This document shows, piece after piece, positions 12,724 to 21,641 of a stretch of 64,000 nt of DNA (its first letter is position 1; each line of letters begins with the position of its first letter). The stretch is from Pirellulales bacterium. GTDB taxonomy: Bacteria; Planctomycetota; Planctomycetia; Pirellulales; Thermoguttaceae. The notes below the pieces were generated by a model. That model was not told the origin of the DNA. It saw nothing but the letters and a program-made list of their open reading frames with translations, and did no database searches. The stretch lies in assembly GCA_020846145.1 (NCBI GenBank), contig JADLEL010000121.1, positions 1 to 64,000 on the forward strand, given 5' to 3'. The position numbers and the translations under genes were made by a program.

Positions 12724-13551
12724 ATGTCCAACGATATTTCCAAAATCCTGAGCGAATGGCCGTACCAACCGGAAGAGGTCTTGGTGCGGATCGTGGCGGG
12801 CGACGACGGCAGGCGAAAATTGCAGTTGCGGATCGATTTGGGGATTTTGCAAATGGAACTGGACGGTCGGCCCGACGGACTGAAGCCCGAGAAGTGCGAT
12901 TCGTGGCTCGATTATTACGAGCATCGGCAGCGGACGCACGACGAATTTCGTCCCGACAGCCCCCCTTTCTCGCTGAAGCCCGACGATTGCGCGCGGCTGT
13001 GGCGCGAAGGCGTACAGTATTATCACCGTTACTTGAGTTTTTGGCATTTGGACATGTACGAGCTTTGCGCCCGCGATACCCAGCGGAATTTGCGGCTGTT
13101 CGCTTTCGTTTGCGCGTTCGCCGAGGACGACCGGCAGAAGATGCAATTCGACCAGTGGCGGCCTTACGTGCTGATGATGCATACCCGGGCGGCGGCCATG
13201 CCGCTGGTGCTGAAAAAGGCGTACCGCGAGGCGTTTCGGGCGATCGATTCGGGGATCGAGGGAATCCGCGAATTTTTGGAAGAATATCACCAGAGTCATC
13301 GCGCCGAGGAGTGCGTCGAGTTGGCGAGCCTGGAGCGTTGGCGCGCGGAACTGCTGGCCCACGAGGAAACCGTCGCCGCGCTCGATCCCCAGAGCAAGAT
13401 GCAGATTTTACGGCAAAAACTCGAACGAGCCATCGACGCCGAGGAATTCGAGGACGCCGCGAAGTTGAGAGATGAAATACGAAGTTTGGGGGAGAAAAGT
13501 GGAGAGTGGAGAGTGGAGAGTGGAGAGGGGAGAGGGGAGAGAGGTGAATGA
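12724..13551 (+). CDS. UvrB/UvrC-motif protein of unknown function
   Basis: The 275-residue protein from ATG 12724 (MSNDISK...) has an unassigned N-terminal body with many aromatic and acidic residues. Near residues 215-245 lies a UvrB/UvrC (UVR) motif: KMQILRQKLERAIDAEEFEDAAKLRDEIRSL is the helical-hairpin signature used in UvrB-UvrC and Clp-adaptor contacts. The last 20 or so residues (GEWRVESGEGRGERGE) are encoded by the GAGAGTGGAGAG repeat and are probably not native. The function is unknown. Confidence 0.8.
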   Translation: MSNDISKILSEWPYQPEEVLVRIVAGDDGRRKLQLRIDLGILQMELDGRPDGLKPEKCDSWLDYYEHRQRTHDEFRPDSPPFSLKPDDCARLWREGVQYYHRYLSFWHLDMYELCARDTQRNLRLFAFVCAFAEDDRQKMQFDQWRPYVLMMHTRAAAMPLVLKKAYREAFRAIDSGIEGIREFLEEYHQSHRAEECVELASLERWRAELLAHEETVAALDPQSKMQILRQKLERAIDAEEFEDAAKLRDEIRSLGEKSGEWRVESGEGRGERGE

Positions 13552-13742
13552 CGAAATCCAAAATCCGAATGACGAAAAATGTTCAAAATCCGAATGTCAA
13601 AGTGGCATGGAGTTTTTTCGTCATTCGTCATTTATCATTCGGCTTTCTTTCGTCCTTCGAACTTCGTCATTCGTCATGCCCCTCTCTCCCCTCTCCCCTC
13701 TCCCCTATCCCCCATCCCCTATTCCCTAAACCCTATCCCCTA
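13495..13742. repeat. Fuzzy hairpins: GAGAGTGGAGAG, GAATGACGAA and CCCCTATCCCC units
   Basis: Three degenerate repeat families are chained from inside the 3' end of the upstream gene to three bases before the aroDE start. GAATGACGAAAATCC-type units (13547-13600) pair with TTCGTCATTCGTCATT units (13617-13678), and CCCTCTCCCC units follow. Confidence 0.8.
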
Positions 13743-15376: not shown

Positions 15377-16303
15377 ATGCTTTCCCTCATCGGCTATCGC
15401 GCGACCGGAAAAACGACGCTGGCGAAACTGCTCGCCGAAAAACTGGGCTGGGAGTGGCTCGACGCCGACGTGGAGATCGAGCGCGCGGCGGGCAAGAGCA
15501 TCGCGCGGATTTTCGCCGAGGACGGCGAACCGGCCTTCCGCGACTTGGAAGCGCGGATCATCGCCGATCTCTGCCGCCGCGAACGCCTGGTCCTGGCGAC
15601 CGGCGGCGGCGCGCCGCTGCGCGAGGAAACCCGCCGCGCGCTGCGCGCGGCCGGCAAAGTCGTCTGGCTCACCGCGCAGCCGGAAACGATCCACGCCCGC
15701 ATGACGGGCGACGCCACCACGGCCGAGCGTCGGCCGAGCCTGACCGACCGCGCGCCGCTGGAGGAGATCGTGCAACTTCTCGCCCGCCGCGAACCGATCT
15801 ACCGCGAAACGGCGGATTTCGCCGTCGAAACCGAAGGCCGCCAACCGGAGGAACTGGCCGAGAAAATTTTACGTCTCGTTCGAAACGAAAGCGACCTGCC
15901 CCAATCGGACGCCGAGTGGAAGAAGATTCTCACGCCCGAACAATACGACGTAACGCGAAAAAAGGGCACGGAACCCGCTTTCACCGGCGAATACACCGAT
16001 TGCTTCAAGGACGGCGTCTATCGTTGCGTCTGTTGCGGCGCGCCGCTGTTCGCATCGGACGACAAGTATCATTCGGGCTGCGGCTGGCCCGCCTTCTCCA
16101 AACCGGCCGGCGGCGACAGCGTCGAGGAATCGCGCGACGAGAGCCACTTCATGGTCCGCACGGAAATTACGTGCCGCCGTTGCGGCGCGCATCTCGGCCA
16201 CGTCTTCGACGACGGCCCCGGCCCCGCCGGCTTGCGCTACTGCATCAATTCCATCGCCCTGAAATTGGAAGAGCGCGGATCCAACGACCCGCCGCGCAAA
16301 TAA
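15377..16303 (+). CDS. Shikimate kinase - MsrB (methionine-R-sulfoxide reductase) fusion
   Basis: The 308-residue protein contains a complete shikimate kinase (about 1-168: Walker loop GYRATGKTT at 6-14, DADVEIE around D32, GGGAP at 76-80). In the same frame follows a complete MsrB (about 174-302). MsrB hallmarks are zinc pairs C217-x2-C220 and C266-x2-C269, the resolving-type Cys235 in SGCGWPAF, and catalytic Cys289 in LRYCINS. The kinase phosphorylates shikimate after aroDE; MsrB repairs oxidised methionine. The join RLVRNESDLPQSDAEWKK shows no stop or frameshift. I know of no standard annotation for this pairing. Confidence 0.9.
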   Translation: MLSLIGYRATGKTTLAKLLAEKLGWEWLDADVEIERAAGKSIARIFAEDGEPAFRDLEARIIADLCRRERLVLATGGGAPLREETRRALRAAGKVVWLTAQPETIHARMTGDATTAERRPSLTDRAPLEEIVQLLARREPIYRETADFAVETEGRQPEELAEKILRLVRNESDLPQSDAEWKKILTPEQYDVTRKKGTEPAFTGEYTDCFKDGVYRCVCCGAPLFASDDKYHSGCGWPAFSKPAGGDSVEESRDESHFMVRTEITCRRCGAHLGHVFDDGPGPAGLRYCINSIALKLEERGSNDPPRK

Positions 16304-16573: not shown

Positions 16574-16963
16574 ATGGCCCGCCTCCCCTATCCCGCACTC
16601 GCGCTCGACAACATCACCCGGGCGATCGATATCGTCCGCGCCGGCCAAGTCGTGGAAAAACGCGACTTGTTCGCCAATCTCGCCTGGAACCTCCAAGGAC
16701 CGCTGCAAGCCTTGGTGTTTGGCAATCCCGACGCGCCCCCGACCGCCGCGGCGATTGACGAGGACGCCGATCTCGCGGCCGATCTCGACGAACGCCTCGA
16801 CGAATTCGCCTGGGTTCTCGATTGCGCCCGGTCGCAATACAACGCCGTCGCGGCGGCCAACGACGTGGCCGCCGACGCGAAGTCCATCGATCCCGCGACA
16901 ATTCTGGCCATCGTCAATATCGTGCTGCAACTGATCGACGCCTGGCGAAAGCGGCGGAATTAG
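16574..16963 (+). CDS. Small protein of unknown function, C-terminal hydrophobic helix
   Basis: The 129-residue protein has an AAAGGAG ribosome site 7 bases before its ATG. The body is helical and acidic. The C-terminus SIDPATILAIVNIVLQLIDA is a hydrophobic helix capped by WRKRRN, suggesting membrane association. It is the first gene of a plus-strand series up to 21641 with phage-like character. No known family is recognised. Confidence 0.65.
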   Translation: MARLPYPALALDNITRAIDIVRAGQVVEKRDLFANLAWNLQGPLQALVFGNPDAPPTAAAIDEDADLAADLDERLDEFAWVLDCARSQYNAVAAANDVAADAKSIDPATILAIVNIVLQLIDAWRKRRN

Positions 16964-16967
16964 ATCT

Positions 16968-17045
16968 TGGGACTTGGGTCTTAGGACTTGGGTCTTGGAT
17001 TCCAAGCTCCAAGACCAAAGACTCAAAACCAAAGTCCCAAACTAC
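16968..17045. repeat. Fuzzy hairpin of CTTGGGACTTGGGTCTTAGG units
   Basis: Left-arm units CTTGGGACTTGGGTC pair with right-arm units CCAAGACCAAAGACTC and CCAAAGTCCCAA, ending about 18 bases before the next ATG. The same family occurs at 35071-35160, at 62416-62550 and, in frame, at 41475-41503. Confidence 0.8.
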
Positions 17046-17063
17046 CATTCCTAGGAGTCCGAT

Positions 17064-17777
17064 ATGAAAATCCCGCATTTTATTCCAATCGTACTTTTGC
17101 TTGCCGGCCTTGGCCGCGCCGGCGAACCGTCGCTCCAACTCCTGGCCGCGGAGGCCGAGCCGGCGGCGAAAATCACCGCTCCGGCGAAGGCGCAGGTCGG
17201 ATTCCCCGTCCAACTGCAAACCGAAGGCTCCGTCGGCAAGGCCCTGAAGTGGATCGTCTTTCCCGCCGAGCCCGACGCGGTTTTTCTCGCGGTGGTAACC
17301 GAGGACGGCCAGCGCGTCGGGCTGTTCGTCAGCCCCAAGCCGGGCACTTTTTATTTCGCGCTCGTGGCCGCGTCGGGCGAGAAGATCGCCGTGGCGAAGC
17401 ATACGCTCGTCGTCGAAGGACCGCGGCCGAATCCCGATCCCGCGCCCCAGCCCGTCCCGCCTCCGCCCGTGGGCAAACTGTGGACCGTGATCGTCGCGGA
17501 GTCGGGCCAACTCACGCCGGCCCAGGGCAAGCTCGTCGCCTCGAAGGCCGTCGCCGATTACCTCCGGGCGAAGGGATTCCCCAAGGCGTGGATGATCGAC
17601 AAGGACGTTTTGGACGAAAACGACCGGCAGCCGCCGACCCTCGCGGAATACATCGCCCGCGCGAAATCGCTCCCCTACCTGTTTCTCGTCTCCGATGCCG
17701 GCGCCGTGCTTCACGAGGGCTCGCTGCCGGAAAGCGAAGAAGCATTGCTGCAATTGTTGAAGAAGTTCGGTGGCTAA
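17064..17777 (+). CDS. Secreted protein with beta-sandwich-like N-domain, unknown function
   Basis: The 237-residue protein begins with a signal peptide (KIPHFIPIVLLLAGLGRAGE). A domain rich in beta strands (about 30-125) follows, then a proline linker (PNPDPAPQPVPPPP at about 130-145) and a C-terminal alpha/beta domain. The C-terminal part (VIVAESGQLTPAQGKLV...YLRAKGFPKAWMIDKD...YLFLVSDAGAVLHEGSLP) is thioredoxin-like in rhythm but lacks a CxxC pair. AGGAGTCCGAT precedes the ATG. Its neighbours suggest a surface or phage-derived role. Confidence 0.65.
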   Translation: MKIPHFIPIVLLLAGLGRAGEPSLQLLAAEAEPAAKITAPAKAQVGFPVQLQTEGSVGKALKWIVFPAEPDAVFLAVVTEDGQRVGLFVSPKPGTFYFALVAASGEKIAVAKHTLVVEGPRPNPDPAPQPVPPPPVGKLWTVIVAESGQLTPAQGKLVASKAVADYLRAKGFPKAWMIDKDVLDENDRQPPTLAEYIARAKSLPYLFLVSDAGAVLHEGSLPESEEALLQLLKKFGG

Positions 17778-17783
17778 AAAAAT

Positions 17784-17935
17784 GAATGACGAATGACGAA
17801 GCTCGAATGACGAAAGAAATCCGAATGACGAATGACGAATGAGTACATATTCCGTTAGTGAAACTACACTTTAGGGCTTCGAGCTTTGAACTTCTTTCGT
17901 CATTCGAGCTTCGTCATTCGTCATTTCCCATCCCT
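17784..17935. repeat. Fuzzy hairpin of GAATGACGAA / TTCGTCATTC units
   Basis: GAATGACGAATGACGAAGC units on the left pair with CGTCATTCGAGCTTCGTCAT on the right. The hairpin lies between the secreted protein gene and the papain-like gene, and ends about 20 bases before the latter's start. Confidence 0.8.
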
Positions 17936-17956
17936 TTACCTCCAGCCCACGCTCCC

Positions 17957-18706
17957 ATGCACACCAACCATCATATCGAAGAAACTCCTCAAGCCACCGG
18001 CTGCCTGCCGCGAAGCTCGAAAGTCGGCGAAAACGCCCTCTTTCCCGTGGCCGGAACGGTCGATGCCTGTCCGCTCCTTTCGCGGTCGGACTGGATTGAA
18101 TGTTCGATCCGCCACAAAGTCTGGACGGTCATCGACCAGAATCCGCAAAGCTCCTGCTGTCCTTCGGCGGCGGCCGGCGCGGCGATGATCCTCCGCGAAA
18201 TCGCCGGCCAAAAGCGGATTTTGCTCTCGCAAGGCTCGCTCTACGGGCAGATCAACGGCGGGCGGGACGCCGGCGCGAATATCGAAGACGCGCTCGACGC
18301 GATGATGAACGTCGGCGTCTGCCCGGCGTCGCAAATCGATCCGAAAAACTGGCAAGGCCGCGGTTGGCCGCGCGATTGGAAGGCGGAAGCGAAAAAATTC
18401 CGCGTCCTCGAAGCCTTCGATTGCCCCACGTTCGACGCCGTCGCCTCCGCCGTGCAGCGCGGAATGCCCGTGGTCTTCGGCGTCTTCTGGGGCGCGGGCG
18501 GACACGCCCTAACCGCCGTCGGCCTGAAGAAGAACGGCGGCGGCTGGAACCTGGAATTTTTGAATAGCTGGGGAGCATCCTGGGGCGACGGCGGCTTGGG
18601 CTTCCTCCCCGAAGCGAAGTGCCGCGGCATCGCTACCTTCGGCGCATTCGCCCTCCGCAGCGTTGCCATCCCCGCCGGCGAAGACCTGCCGCCGGCGTTG
18701 AAATAA
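17957..18706 (+). CDS. Papain-like (C1-family) cysteine peptidase
   Basis: The 249-residue protein shows the papain triad in order: Q61 and C67 with the same six-residue spacing as Gln19/Cys25 of papain (QNPQSSC), H183 in GGHALTAVG and N203 in LNSWGASWGDGGLGF. There is no signal peptide and no pro-domain of the usual kind; the first 50 residues are short and Cys-containing. The upstream open frame is repeat DNA, so the ATG at 17957 is preferred. In this cluster it may process or lyse, as tail- or lysis-associated peptidases do, which is inference. Confidence 0.82.
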   Translation: MHTNHHIEETPQATGCLPRSSKVGENALFPVAGTVDACPLLSRSDWIECSIRHKVWTVIDQNPQSSCCPSAAAGAAMILREIAGQKRILLSQGSLYGQINGGRDAGANIEDALDAMMNVGVCPASQIDPKNWQGRGWPRDWKAEAKKFRVLEAFDCPTFDAVASAVQRGMPVVFGVFWGAGGHALTAVGLKKNGGGWNLEFLNSWGASWGDGGLGFLPEAKCRGIATFGAFALRSVAIPAGEDLPPALK

Positions 18707-18715
18707 ATCGAAATA

Positions 18716-18801
18716 AAGCGAGCCGAGGGGGTTTATCCCTCGGCTCAACCGGCTGACCAATTTCGCGTTTCAGCCAAGGGGATAAACCCCTCGGCTCGCT
18801 T
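18716..18801. repeat. REP-like inverted repeat, AGCGAGCCGAGGG family
   Basis: AGCGAGCCGAGGGGGTTTAT on the left pairs with the AAACCCCTCGGCTCGCT right arm. Each half has its own CCGAGGG/CCCTCGG palindrome. Confidence 0.85.
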
Positions 18802-18844
18802 GACACAAGAACATCCATCCATTCCACACTTTCAGGAGACCATC

Positions 18845-19138
18845 ATGCGTATCCATCCCTATGTTCTCGCATCGATTGCCGCGGCCGTCTTATGTTGCGG
18901 CTCGGCCTCGTTCGCCGGCGGCTGCAAAACCTGTCCCAACGGTTTTTGCCCCTTTCCCGTGCCGATCGGAAAACCGATCGCTCCGCCGTCGATTAAGAAT
19001 CCGCCGAAACTTGCGGCGCCGACCTGTACGTCTTGTGCGTCCGCCGCCTCCGCTCGTCCCCGCCGCGCCATCGTTCGCGTCGTCGGCCGTTTGTTGCATC
19101 CTTGCGGAATCATCCGCTATCGGTGCCCAAGGAACTAA
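18845..19138 (+). CDS. Small secreted Cys/Pro-rich protein
   Basis: 97 residues follow a CAGGAGACC ribosome site. A signal peptide (VLASIAAAVLCCGSASFAGG) is followed by a Cys-rich segment (CKTCPNGFCPFP), a proline-rich middle and a basic C-terminus (RPRRAIVRVVGRLLHPCGIIRYRCPRN). It might be disulfide-bonded and cell-surface. No family is recognised. Confidence 0.6.
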   Translation: MRIHPYVLASIAAAVLCCGSASFAGGCKTCPNGFCPFPVPIGKPIAPPSIKNPPKLAAPTCTSCASAASARPRRAIVRVVGRLLHPCGIIRYRCPRN

Positions 19139-19212
19139 AACGAGAAACTCCAAGACTTAAAACCAAAGACCAATAATCCTCAATCCAAAACCATTCCTAC
19201 GGAAACCAAATC

Positions 19213-19662
19213 ATGTTCGCGCAAACCGATATTTTCAGCCTCGACAAATGGGTCATGGTCGGGAAAGACCTGGGCATCGGTGCCATGTTCGCCCTCGTGC
19301 TGTTGGCCCTCGGCGCTTGCGGATCGTTCTATATTCTTCGCGCCGGCTTCGGCAAGCGGGGCTTCGTGCGCGAGTTTTTCGACGGCGTGAAGAACGCGGC
19401 GATCGAATTTTTCGACCGTCTCACGCAAACGCTCGACCGCCTCGAAGCGGCCGCCGCCGAAAGCCGCGACTATCACCGGCAGCAAGCCGCCGTTTGCCGG
19501 ACGATGCTCGATGCCCATACCGATCCCGCGGGACCGTGCAACCTCGCCGGCATCCGCGCGGCGGCCGCCTGCGGCCTCGACGCCCTCGAATCGATCGGCG
19601 AGCAAGTCGGCGCGGACGTCGCCAAGCACGTCGAAGCCGCGAAAAACAAACTCATCGCTTGA
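19213..19662 (+). CDS. Single-span membrane protein, holin-like layout
   Basis: The 149-residue protein has one transmembrane helix (about residues 22-44, IGAMFALVLLALGACGSFYIL), followed by basic residues and a long helical cytoplasmic-type tail with coiled-coil character. The layout resembles some phage holins or tail-module membrane proteins, but there is no specific signature. It lies in the plus-strand series with the papain-like and SGNH genes. Confidence 0.6.
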   Translation: MFAQTDIFSLDKWVMVGKDLGIGAMFALVLLALGACGSFYILRAGFGKRGFVREFFDGVKNAAIEFFDRLTQTLDRLEAAAAESRDYHRQQAAVCRTMLDAHTDPAGPCNLAGIRAAAACGLDALESIGEQVGADVAKHVEAAKNKLIA

Positions 19663-19687
19663 CGATCGTCGAACAAATCCGACGGTG

Positions 19688-19794
19688 CCATGCCCACGCT
19701 TGTCGTGGGCATGATGTTGGATGGGCGTGAGTATTCGGCAATCGTACTCAGCCCCCCACATGCCCACGACAAGCGTGGGCATGGCACCCATCAA
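19688..19794. repeat. Inverted repeat, GCCATGCCCACGCTTG family
   Basis: GGTGCCATGCCCACGCTTGT at the left pairs with the right-arm CAAGCGTGGGCATGGCACC across about 65 bases. A relative lies at 40931-41014. Confidence 0.85.
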
Positions 19795-19839
19795 GCTATC
19801 GGAAAATCAAACCTCCCTTCCCCGAAAGGAACCCACATT

Positions 19840-20688
19840 ATGGCAAACTCATTCGACACGCAGGCCAACGGCTGGCGGGACGACGGCAGCGAAAGCGGCG
19901 TCCTCCGCACCGAATTGGCCCGCGGAAACCTGGTCCTCCGCCCGCTCCCGGCGGCCGATTTCTCGATCGTTACGGCGGGCAGCGGCGTCTGCAATCCCGT
20001 TGCCGACGGCGGCGGATCGCGCTGCGGAAACCAATACGCGTTCCTCAGCGTGCCCGACGCCGCATCGTTCGTCGGCCTGACCTTCTCGTTCAACGGCCGC
20101 GCGCTGGGATTATGTTACAGCACGACCTCGACGCCGGGAACGAAGAACGCCTCGGCGATCATCGACGGCGTCGCTTATCCCCTGCCGCCGGCGCCGCGCA
20201 AGGTCCTGGACCCCGCCGACTGCAATCCCGGCGCGGGCTATCACTACTATCCGGTGGCCGAGAATCTTGCCGACGGCCCGCATCAATGCACGCTCGCCGT
20301 AACCGGCGACGCCGCCGGCGCCGCGCAGATCGTTTACCTGTACGGCATCTTCGTCGAGGAACGGGTGGGCAATCGGCCCGCCCCGCCCAGCGCGGCGCTG
20401 GCCAATTCCGCGCTGGTAACGACCGCCGCGCGGCAAACGCTCAACGCGCTGTTCGCTTACAACAACGCCGCCAACTACATTTCGGCGATCCATCTGGCCA
20501 ACGTTTCGGGCGCCGATTGCCTCGTAACGCTCGATAAGAATAGCGTCGCCTTCTGGCGCGAGATCGTTTCGGCCAACAAAACGCGGGAGATCAACTTCCC
20601 GCTGCCGGTGGCCATCAGTTTCAACTACGGCATCGCCTGCCAGTCCGCCAACGCCATCCAAACTTCGTTATGGGGGTACGCACTATGA
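19840..20688 (+). CDS. Beta-rich protein of unknown function (adhesin/tail-like)
   Basis: The 282-residue protein starts at the ATG 19840 after CGAAAGGAACC. It is rich in short strands, Asn, Gly and Ala (SFDTQANGWRDDGSESGVLR...), without a signal peptide. The composition recalls carbohydrate-binding or phage tail proteins. Its stop overlaps the start of the SGNH hydrolase gene (ATGA), so the two are translationally coupled and likely work together. Confidence 0.65.
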   Translation: MANSFDTQANGWRDDGSESGVLRTELARGNLVLRPLPAADFSIVTAGSGVCNPVADGGGSRCGNQYAFLSVPDAASFVGLTFSFNGRALGLCYSTTSTPGTKNASAIIDGVAYPLPPAPRKVLDPADCNPGAGYHYYPVAENLADGPHQCTLAVTGDAAGAAQIVYLYGIFVEERVGNRPAPPSAALANSALVTTAARQTLNALFAYNNAANYISAIHLANVSGADCLVTLDKNSVAFWREIVSANKTREINFPLPVAISFNYGIACQSANAIQTSLWGYAL

Positions 20689-21641
20689 GAAAAATCCAAA
20701 CCAACTACGCGAAATCTCCCGTCAAAACGCTGGCGGCGATGGGCGACAGCCTGACCTTCGCGTCGGCGCTGGGAGTCCCCGCTCATTTATATTGGCCGGA
20801 AGTACTGGCGGCAAGCCTGCGAAGCCTCGACGCGCCCCTGAAAGCGCGGAATTTCGGCGCCGGTGGATCGACTTCGCTGGAAATGCTCGAACGGCAAGCG
20901 AGCATGACGCAGTTCGACGTGCCCGCGCTGGGTATCCTCTTCGCCGGACACAACGATCTCAACCTGAACGGCACGCTCGCCGCCGGATCGGGCAACGCCA
21001 ACCGCACGATCACCATCTGCTTGCGTCCTTCCAAAGGCGCGAACAACGCCGCGGTCGTCGGCGCGGCCGTGGCCTTTATTTCCTGGAACGGCGGCGCGAA
21101 TAAAGCAACCGCCGTCAGCGTAACCGCGCAAACCTCGACGACCATCACCGTCTCCACGGCGTCCGGCGACAATCTGCCGTCGGGAAGCACCGCGGTCAAT
21201 GTCCGCCTCGACGCCAAGGCGAATATCGAGAGCATGACGGACTTCCTGCTCGAGGCCGGCTGTCCGAAGGTCGTCGTCTGCTCGACCCATTTTCAGAATT
21301 TCAACGGCGGCGGAGACAATTCGGCGGGCAACGTGCCCTATCCCGCGCCGCAGACCGGCCTCCGGCTCGATCTCTGGAACGCGCAGCGCGCGGCGGCCCT
21401 CGAAACGGCCGCCGCATGGCCGGGCAAAGTCGCGTTCTGCAACCTTTACGCGGCAATGCACAACGCGCTGACGAATCCCAATAATCCGTTCCATCAGGCG
21501 AACCAAGCGGGCGTCGATGCCTTTTGGCACGTCGCCGCCGCCAATACGCACCTGAACGCGCTCGGCAACCGGATCGTCGCCCACGCGTTATTGGCGACCC
21601 TGCAAAGTCAAACGGGTTGGCTCAATGACTTGAAGAGTTGA
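20685..21641 (+). CDS. SGNH/GDSL-type hydrolase
   Basis: The 318-residue protein has block I AAMGDSLTF with nucleophile Ser22, a GHND segment (FAGHNDLNLNG) for the oxyanion Asn, and block V AANTHLNALGNRI carrying the His. The Asp usually two or three residues before that His is replaced, so the triad may be modified. A low-complexity beta-rich insertion (NAAVVGAAVAFISWNGG...) lies in the middle. Such esterases deacetylate glycans, a role found in phage tailspikes. It is coupled to the upstream gene by a 4-base overlap. Confidence 0.8.
   Translation: MRKIQTNYAKSPVKTLAAMGDSLTFASALGVPAHLYWPEVLAASLRSLDAPLKARNFGAGGSTSLEMLERQASMTQFDVPALGILFAGHNDLNLNGTLAAGSGNANRTITICLRPSKGANNAAVVGAAVAFISWNGGANKATAVSVTAQTSTTITVSTASGDNLPSGSTAVNVRLDAKANIESMTDFLLEAGCPKVVVCSTHFQNFNGGGDNSAGNVPYPAPQTGLRLDLWNAQRAAALETAAAWPGKVAFCNLYAAMHNALTNPNNPFHQANQAGVDAFWHVAAANTHLNALGNRIVAHALLATLQSQTGWLNDLKS

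Follow-up and report, generated by a model that had tools for sequence, protein, structure and literature searches.

In the 64,000-nucleotide stretch of DNA analysed here (the window; contig JADLEL010000121.1 of a Pirellulales bacterium), seven plus-strand genes, which we call g1 to g7, occupy positions 16574-21641 and are flanked by aroDE / aroK-msrB and by bioB / manC. An earlier note on this DNA had recognised seven such genes between housekeeping loci, and all of them are present there, with starts refined (Table 1). From their sequences and from the positions of related genes in other genomes, it is likely that g1-g5 form a phage-type lysis module built around a papain-like peptidase, which would act in cell lysis. 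We tentatively link this module to packaging and head genes on another contig, C126, of the same genome; these belong to a cluster that is widespread in the order and resembles a gene transfer agent (GTA).

The seven genes and their products

By its papain fold and Gln-Cys-His-Asn active site, g3 is predicted to be a member of peptidase family C1A. A profile of 13 homologues matches the bacterial cysteine protease 3ois (1e-24) and many cathepsins. The four active-site residues, described as intact in the earlier note, align with those of 12 homologues; the Cys and His columns are invariant, and the Gln is absent or shifted in a few sequences. We set the start of g3 at ATG 17957, which is the likelier start because the earlier GTG at 17858 lies in a repeat and encodes a repeat-type peptide. 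We propose that g3 is an endolysin-type lysis peptidase.

In g2, the AlphaFold2 (AF2) model has a predicted local distance difference test (pLDDT) score of 82-94 over most of residues 140-237, which adopt a thioredoxin fold, and the top Foldseek matches are thioredoxin-fold proteins (E = 1.6e-3, probability 1.0). Fold comparison was needed here, as a sequence search of solved structures with a g2 profile returned linker and chance matches only. Because g2 contains no cysteine, we read it as serving in binding or as a scaffold, and consider redox activity unlikely. Structure prediction of the uncharacterised proteins, as the earlier note had suggested, was less useful for g6, whose single-sequence AF2 model (pLDDT 38.6) is unusable.

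The descriptions of the smaller proteins in that note also hold up: g1 has its hydrophobic peak at residue 105, towards the predicted C-terminal helix; g4 has the composition of a Cys-rich secreted peptide; and g5 has a single strong hydrophobic span (peak 2.21 at residue 24) followed by a helical tail. To g1 we assign a putative role as an accessory protein of the lysis module. The overlap of g6 and g7 is real, and the start of g7 is coupled translationally to the end of g6 by the sequence ATGA. Judged by its GDS block and catalytic architecture, g7 is an SGNH/GDSL hydrolase (Pfam Lipase_GDSL_2, 1.6e-10 over residues 23-302, with a GDSLT motif). In searches of Pfam, PHROG and NCBIfam, g6 had no match; it had no phage match either, and no convincing match among 147 genomes of the order. 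It could be a protein of the virion surface or of a fibre. No clear signal peptide was seen in g6 or g7, and their membership in the lysis module is unproven.

Table 1. Genes and repeats of the cassette, in window coordinates
Feature	Position	Strand	Description
g1	16574..16963	+	129 aa, acidic; hydrophobic C-terminal helix IDPATILAIVNIVLQLIDAW then KRR; AAAGGAG Shine-Dalgarno
g2	17064..17777	+	237 aa, secreted; low-confidence beta domain, Pro-rich linker, cysteine-free thioredoxin-fold C-terminal domain; AGGAG Shine-Dalgarno
Interspersed palindromic repeat, GAATGACGAA family	17781..17925	.	g2-g3 spacer
g3	17957..18706	+	249 aa, papain-like C1A peptidase (predicted), no signal peptide, N-terminal GCLPR motif
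Inverted repeat, GCCGAGGG family	18716..18801	.	g3-g4 spacer
g4	18845..19138	+	97 aa, secreted, cationic, Cys-rich: 9 Cys, net charge +13; hydrophobic leader; TCAGGAG Shine-Dalgarno
g5	19213..19662	+	149 aa, one transmembrane span and coiled coil; holin-like
Inverted repeat TGCCCACGCTTGTCGTGGGCA	19684..19788	.	g5-g6 spacer
g6	19840..20688	+	282 aa, orphan, predicted beta-rich
g7	20685..21641	+	318 aa, predicted SGNH/GDSL hydrolase; inserted region between catalytic blocks

No capsid, portal, terminase or integrase gene lies within the g1-g7 interval. The earlier note was right on this for the interval, but not for the genome, because terminase, portal and capsid genes are present on C126. Only host genes flank the cassette, and neither an integrase gene nor head genes were seen in its vicinity, so the integrase, replication and structural genes that would surround it in an intact prophage are missing. 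We found no tRNA or small RNA as a mark of integration and no direct repeats bounding the cassette as attachment sites, and the G+C content of the interval equals that of the host.

All seven reading frames are open, the catalytic residues are intact and the ribosome sites are mostly good. Each of the larger spacers (17778-17956, 18707-18844 and 19663-19839) contains a palindromic repeat. The repeat family in the first of these has further copies in a host spacer (13546-13663) and between genes of the head-tail cluster on C126 (L034:13747-13761), and relatives of the second are found at window positions 1590 and 24086. Because its spacers hold host repeats, the cassette has probably been resident for a long time. 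Beside it, a single frame at 15377-16303 encodes both AroK (shikimate kinase) and MsrB as a fusion; their genes are at separate places in the 12 relatives tested.

Related cassettes in phages and planctomycete clusters

Strong papain-family matches were found by profile search in 10 of the 147 genomes of the order (genes outside the window were called with a simple codon-usage caller). Homologous cassettes lie directly upstream of terminase genes in a prophage (locus L136), in two IMG/VR contigs (L310 and L311) and in four order-level clusters (L019, L020, L134 and L161), which agrees with the earlier note's idea of a phage lysis module kept without its phage. The prophage, from genome G483, has the gene order 61-amino-acid helical protein, g2, papain, XhlA-like one-span protein, TerS, TerL (the small and large terminase subunits) and head genes, and the two IMG/VR contigs have the same module beside other terminase types. 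The window's g3 is 40-41% identical to its homologue in the prophage, and its identity to the L136, L310 and L311 papains taken together is 39-41%. With a holin-like membrane protein adjoining a wall-type hydrolase, and terminase genes alongside in the relatives, the set has the layout of a lysis cassette. In an Alicyclobacillus phage a papain-domain protein is annotated as an endolysin.

By phmmer, homologues of g2 lie directly upstream of the papain gene in the prophage, in both IMG/VR contigs and in the huge phage LR756511 (L089). In the last of these, g2 and the papain are followed by a small protein and then, one gene on, by a Cys-rich secreted protein. LR756511 is a 595-kb unannotated genome, and this region (L089:7171-11805), with its thioredoxin-fold and papain pair and its Cys-rich protein, hints at a planctomycete host.

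The counterparts of g1, g4 and g5 were recognised by position and appearance. Small proteins with a C-terminal hydrophobic helix adjoin a papain or subtilisin gene in L019, L023, L025, L080 and L161, their likeness to g1 being judged by eye only. Also matched by eye only were g4-like peptides near papain genes in L021, L022, L025 and L089, and a CPDGHC motif with a basic tail at the C-terminus of the L161 papain protein. Proteins with one span and a coil occupy the module position of g5 in L019, L021, L134, L136 and L161, and the counterpart in L096 has a sub-threshold XhlA match.

Other genomes of the order have variants of this arrangement. In G449 a papain gene and a g2-like gene are on a prophage-type contig, and LamG- and fibre-like genes come after the cassette in G470. 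In the family f2, three genomes (G327, G205 and G486; papain omega 0.05-0.10) have the papain module immediately upstream of TerL within a phage-like structural cluster, and four others (G121, G339, G474 and G478) have it between the ATPase gene and TerL. Weak papain matches in other planctomycetes (L024, L026, L027 and L028) were set aside, as they are among ordinary host genes. An IMG/VR search with the window's papain or with papain profile A1 gave no match; the G483 papain as query did match.

The set g1, g2, g3 and g5 recurs in other phages, IMG/VR contigs and clusters, so the content of the cassette is not due to chance. The search for conserved gene order that the earlier note had called for succeeded to this extent. 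It did not recover the full set: no close relative with the same seven genes was found, and searches of the 147 genomes gave no other example of g1-g7 alone.

An order-wide packaging and head cluster

The genome has its own TerL gene outside the window, on C126. One strand of this contig has genes for a helix-turn-helix (HTH) protein, a ParB-like protein, an ATPase-acetyltransferase, TerS, TerL and portal, and the other strand, about 17 kb further on, has genes for protease, cement, major capsid protein and connector, and tail genes. These phage genes (L030:9474-11099 and L034:8585-14649) are split around a GAF sensor gene and a recB-like gene. Matches were obtained for TerL (phrog_38, 1.6e-73), portal (PF05136, 4.6e-18), major capsid protein (PF25209, 2.7e-17), cement (PF09956) and TerS (phrog_4102), and the TerL is nearest, at about 34% identity, to those of D3112/Mushu-like phages. 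In the conserved cluster ATPase (L030:14348-15883), which matches phrog_11143 (unknown function; 2.7e-91), a GNAT acetyltransferase domain is fused to the protein. Two of the C126 frames contain in-frame read-through repeats, ATGILPV-type in the portal frame (L030:7550-9058) and GEGGEQ-type in the ATPase frame.

The TerL has an orthologue, mostly single-copy, in 59 of 98 genomes of the order at E <= 1e-100, including all eleven of the bacterium's own family. Phylum-wide, 7 of 392 genomes pass a TerL threshold of E <= 1e-60, and only three of these are outside the order. The TerL tree tracks host families (12 label changes, where the minimum is 10 and the shuffled mean 25.6), and omega is mostly 0.05-0.3 for all cluster genes tested, which indicates purifying selection. 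Neighbouring genes are often shared among the 40 long loci: an EEP nuclease in 21, a second neighbour in 16 and moaB in 10. Going by the gene lists of the fetched TerL loci, the cluster lacks integrase and replication genes, and a Pfam scan of ten proteins from the cluster region of L206 identified only a subtilase, plus the EEP nuclease in a flanking gene. IMG/VR lists copies from isolates, 14-15 kb long, that contain this cluster alone; more distant relatives of its TerL, portal and capsid are found in true phages, on contigs of 28-56 kb. The cluster TerL is present in the cultured species Botrimarina colliarenosi, Botrimarina hoheduenensis and Lacipirellula limnantheis. Two TerL copies (G397:C1:590899-592374 and G435:C1:478763-480283) are each interrupted by a single in-frame stop, and in some lineages the cluster may thus be decaying. 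Two further TerLs, 65% (L155, filed as Nealsonbacteria) and 56% (L189, filed as Campylobacterota) identical to planctomycete TerL, are probably on misplaced contigs.

Phage packaging and structural proteins encoded without integrase or replication genes, vertical inheritance and purifying selection are features of GTAs. The order-wide cluster, including its copy on C126, combines them and so has GTA-like traits, as far as its genes tell; it may transfer DNA between cells. A 2024 review states that a new GTA cannot be definitively located from sequence alone (PMC11841831).

Relatives of this cluster have a module upstream of the packaging genes, in the gap between the HTH and ParB genes or, in f2, beside TerL. 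It consists of a peptidase, small helical proteins and a protein with one span and a coil. The type of peptidase varies: it is trypsin-like and fused to thioredoxin in L095, subtilisin-like in L080 and L206, and papain-like in L161 and f2. In L161 the order is HTH, NlpC, g1-like, a protein with thioredoxin, papain and Cys tail, holin-like, ParB, ATPase, TerS and TerL; the composite protein fuses a leader, a thioredoxin-like part, a papain and a Cys-rich basic tail.

Interpretation and comparison with known systems

In C126 the HTH and ParB genes are directly adjacent, so the lysis slot of the genome's own cluster is empty. Joined-protein queries with the NlpC and holin-like proteins of relatives, which cover those relatives only, found neither in the genome, and similar queries with terminases and capsids of the G483 and IMG/VR types, limited to those types, matched the C126 TerL alone. 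No lysis-type module other than the window cassette was therefore found, and no head and packaging set other than C126. Given that the lysis slot beside the genome's packaging and head genes is empty, it is more likely that the cassette works for the C126 set than on its own, and the earlier note's view of a stand-alone system is doubtful. We arrive, at a confidence just short of even, at the reading that the window cassette either constitutes the lysis module, displaced or recruited, of a split GTA-like element that is inherited vertically, or took that module's place.

If this is correct, the TerS, TerL, portal, protease, cement and capsid proteins of C126 would produce particles, which presupposes joint expression of C126 and the window's contig (C121). 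The inner membrane would be opened by g5, and g3, which has no signal peptide, would escape and then cut a protein of the cell wall or envelope. The secreted g2, as a binding or scaffold protein, and the cationic, Cys-rich g4 may act beyond the inner membrane, while g6 and g7 could be virion surface or host-recognition proteins.

Several observations weigh against assigning the cassette to the C126 element. The nearest homologues of g3 are in the prophage and viral contigs (40%) and not in the L161 cluster (25%), so the cassette may have been recruited from a phage, or may be a relic of one; the papain tree gives g3 no firm placement. In two genomes of the same family, G449 and G475, papain cassettes are present apart from a normal cluster, in one case on a prophage-type contig. 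The proteins g1, g4 and g5 were likened to their counterparts by layout and composition, without a significant sequence match. Since aroK, msrB and bioB sit apart in the 12 relatives, the neighbourhood is rearranged and offers no empty-site comparison. Lastly, the assembly is in 224 contigs with 94.9% completeness, and further phage genes may be missing from it.

The main rival to the GTA-like reading is that g1-g7 are the lysis and tail-fibre end of an unrelated, lost prophage, kept by chance and now without partner or function. The origin of the closest g3 and g2 homologues in the prophage and IMG/VR contigs would fit such a relic, as would the presence of such prophages in genomes of the same family and the lack of integrase and head genes nearby. 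We nevertheless consider it somewhat unlikely, because seven frames have stayed open with intact catalytic residues and mostly good ribosome sites, the host repeats in every large spacer suggest a long stay without loss of a frame, and the types of phage remnant tested were not found elsewhere in the genome.

It is less probable still that two unrelated neighbours lie side by side, a phage lysis cassette (g1-g5) and a host SGNH hydrolase pair (g6-g7). The orphan status of g6, its own ribosome site after a 177-base spacer with a repeat, and the absence of the g6-g7 pair from the other cassettes seen would all be explained in this way, but g1-g7 are on one strand with no other gene intervening, the cassette in G470 likewise precedes LamG- and fibre-like genes, and the lack of a clear signal peptide in g6 and g7 is what would be expected of part of a virion. 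A stand-alone system for killing, matrix digestion or defence, suggested in the earlier note and by the isolated, hydrolase-rich cassette, is very improbable, since homologous sets occupy phage lysis positions and no second case of g1-g7 alone was found; a defence role gets no support, as g1-g7 match no PADLOC model, and contractile or tailocin-like killing was rejected because no genes for a sheath, baseplate or tube lie close by.

Extending the GTA-like reading to the whole order, it is possible, though we hold this with less confidence than the reading itself, that most Pirellulales carry an undescribed GTA lineage, separate from that of the alphaproteobacteria, whose particles are set free by interchangeable lysis modules based on a protease: a papain, a trypsin or a subtilisin, in many cases together with a thioredoxin fold or fused to one. 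In the present genome the element would be split, with the window cassette as its lysis locus. Proven GTAs are known only from alphaproteobacteria, Brachyspira, Desulfovibrio and Methanococcus (PMC11841831), and no paper describing a planctomycete GTA was found in the literature searched, which lacked most subscription journals and preprints. A candidate GTA in Planctomycetota that is conserved and present in cultured species would make gene transfer in the phylum directly testable. The order-wide integrase-free cluster, which the cassette probably serves, is the more important discovery of the two. If the proposed roles are true, a papain-type lysis peptidase together with a thioredoxin fold would be an unusual means of opening a bacterial cell.

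Among known systems, the cassette resembles the holin-endolysin cassettes of tailed phages in having a small protein with one span and a coiled coil beside a cytosolic hydrolase of wall type, and in the position of its relatives directly upstream of terminase genes in L136, L310 and L311. In contrast to them, its hydrolase is C1A papain-like, its partners are a secreted thioredoxin-fold protein without cysteine and a Cys-rich cationic peptide, and no phage surrounds the set. The modules of L136, L310 and L311 have a g1-like gene, g2, papain and a one-span coil protein in the same order as the window, but they adjoin their own terminase and capsid genes, whereas the cassette of the window has g4, g6 and g7 as extra genes and no head genes in its vicinity. 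Like 3ois and the cathepsins, g3 has a predicted papain fold with Cys-His-Asn and an oxyanion Gln; unlike them it is short, lacks a pro-domain and signal peptide, has an N-terminal GCLPR motif and is found in a phage lysis context.

Known GTAs occupy several loci (PMC11841831). The genes of RcGTA, the GTA of Rhodobacter capsulatus, are spread over at least five loci (PMC7947584), and its release is by a holin-endolysin mechanism (PMC13236601). The element described here is like GTAs of this type in that packaging and head genes, inherited vertically and free of an integrase, occupy more than one locus of its genome, and a putative lysis locus lies elsewhere. It is unlike them in belonging to another phylum, in a TerL nearest to those of D3112/Mushu-like phages, and in being known from its genes alone.

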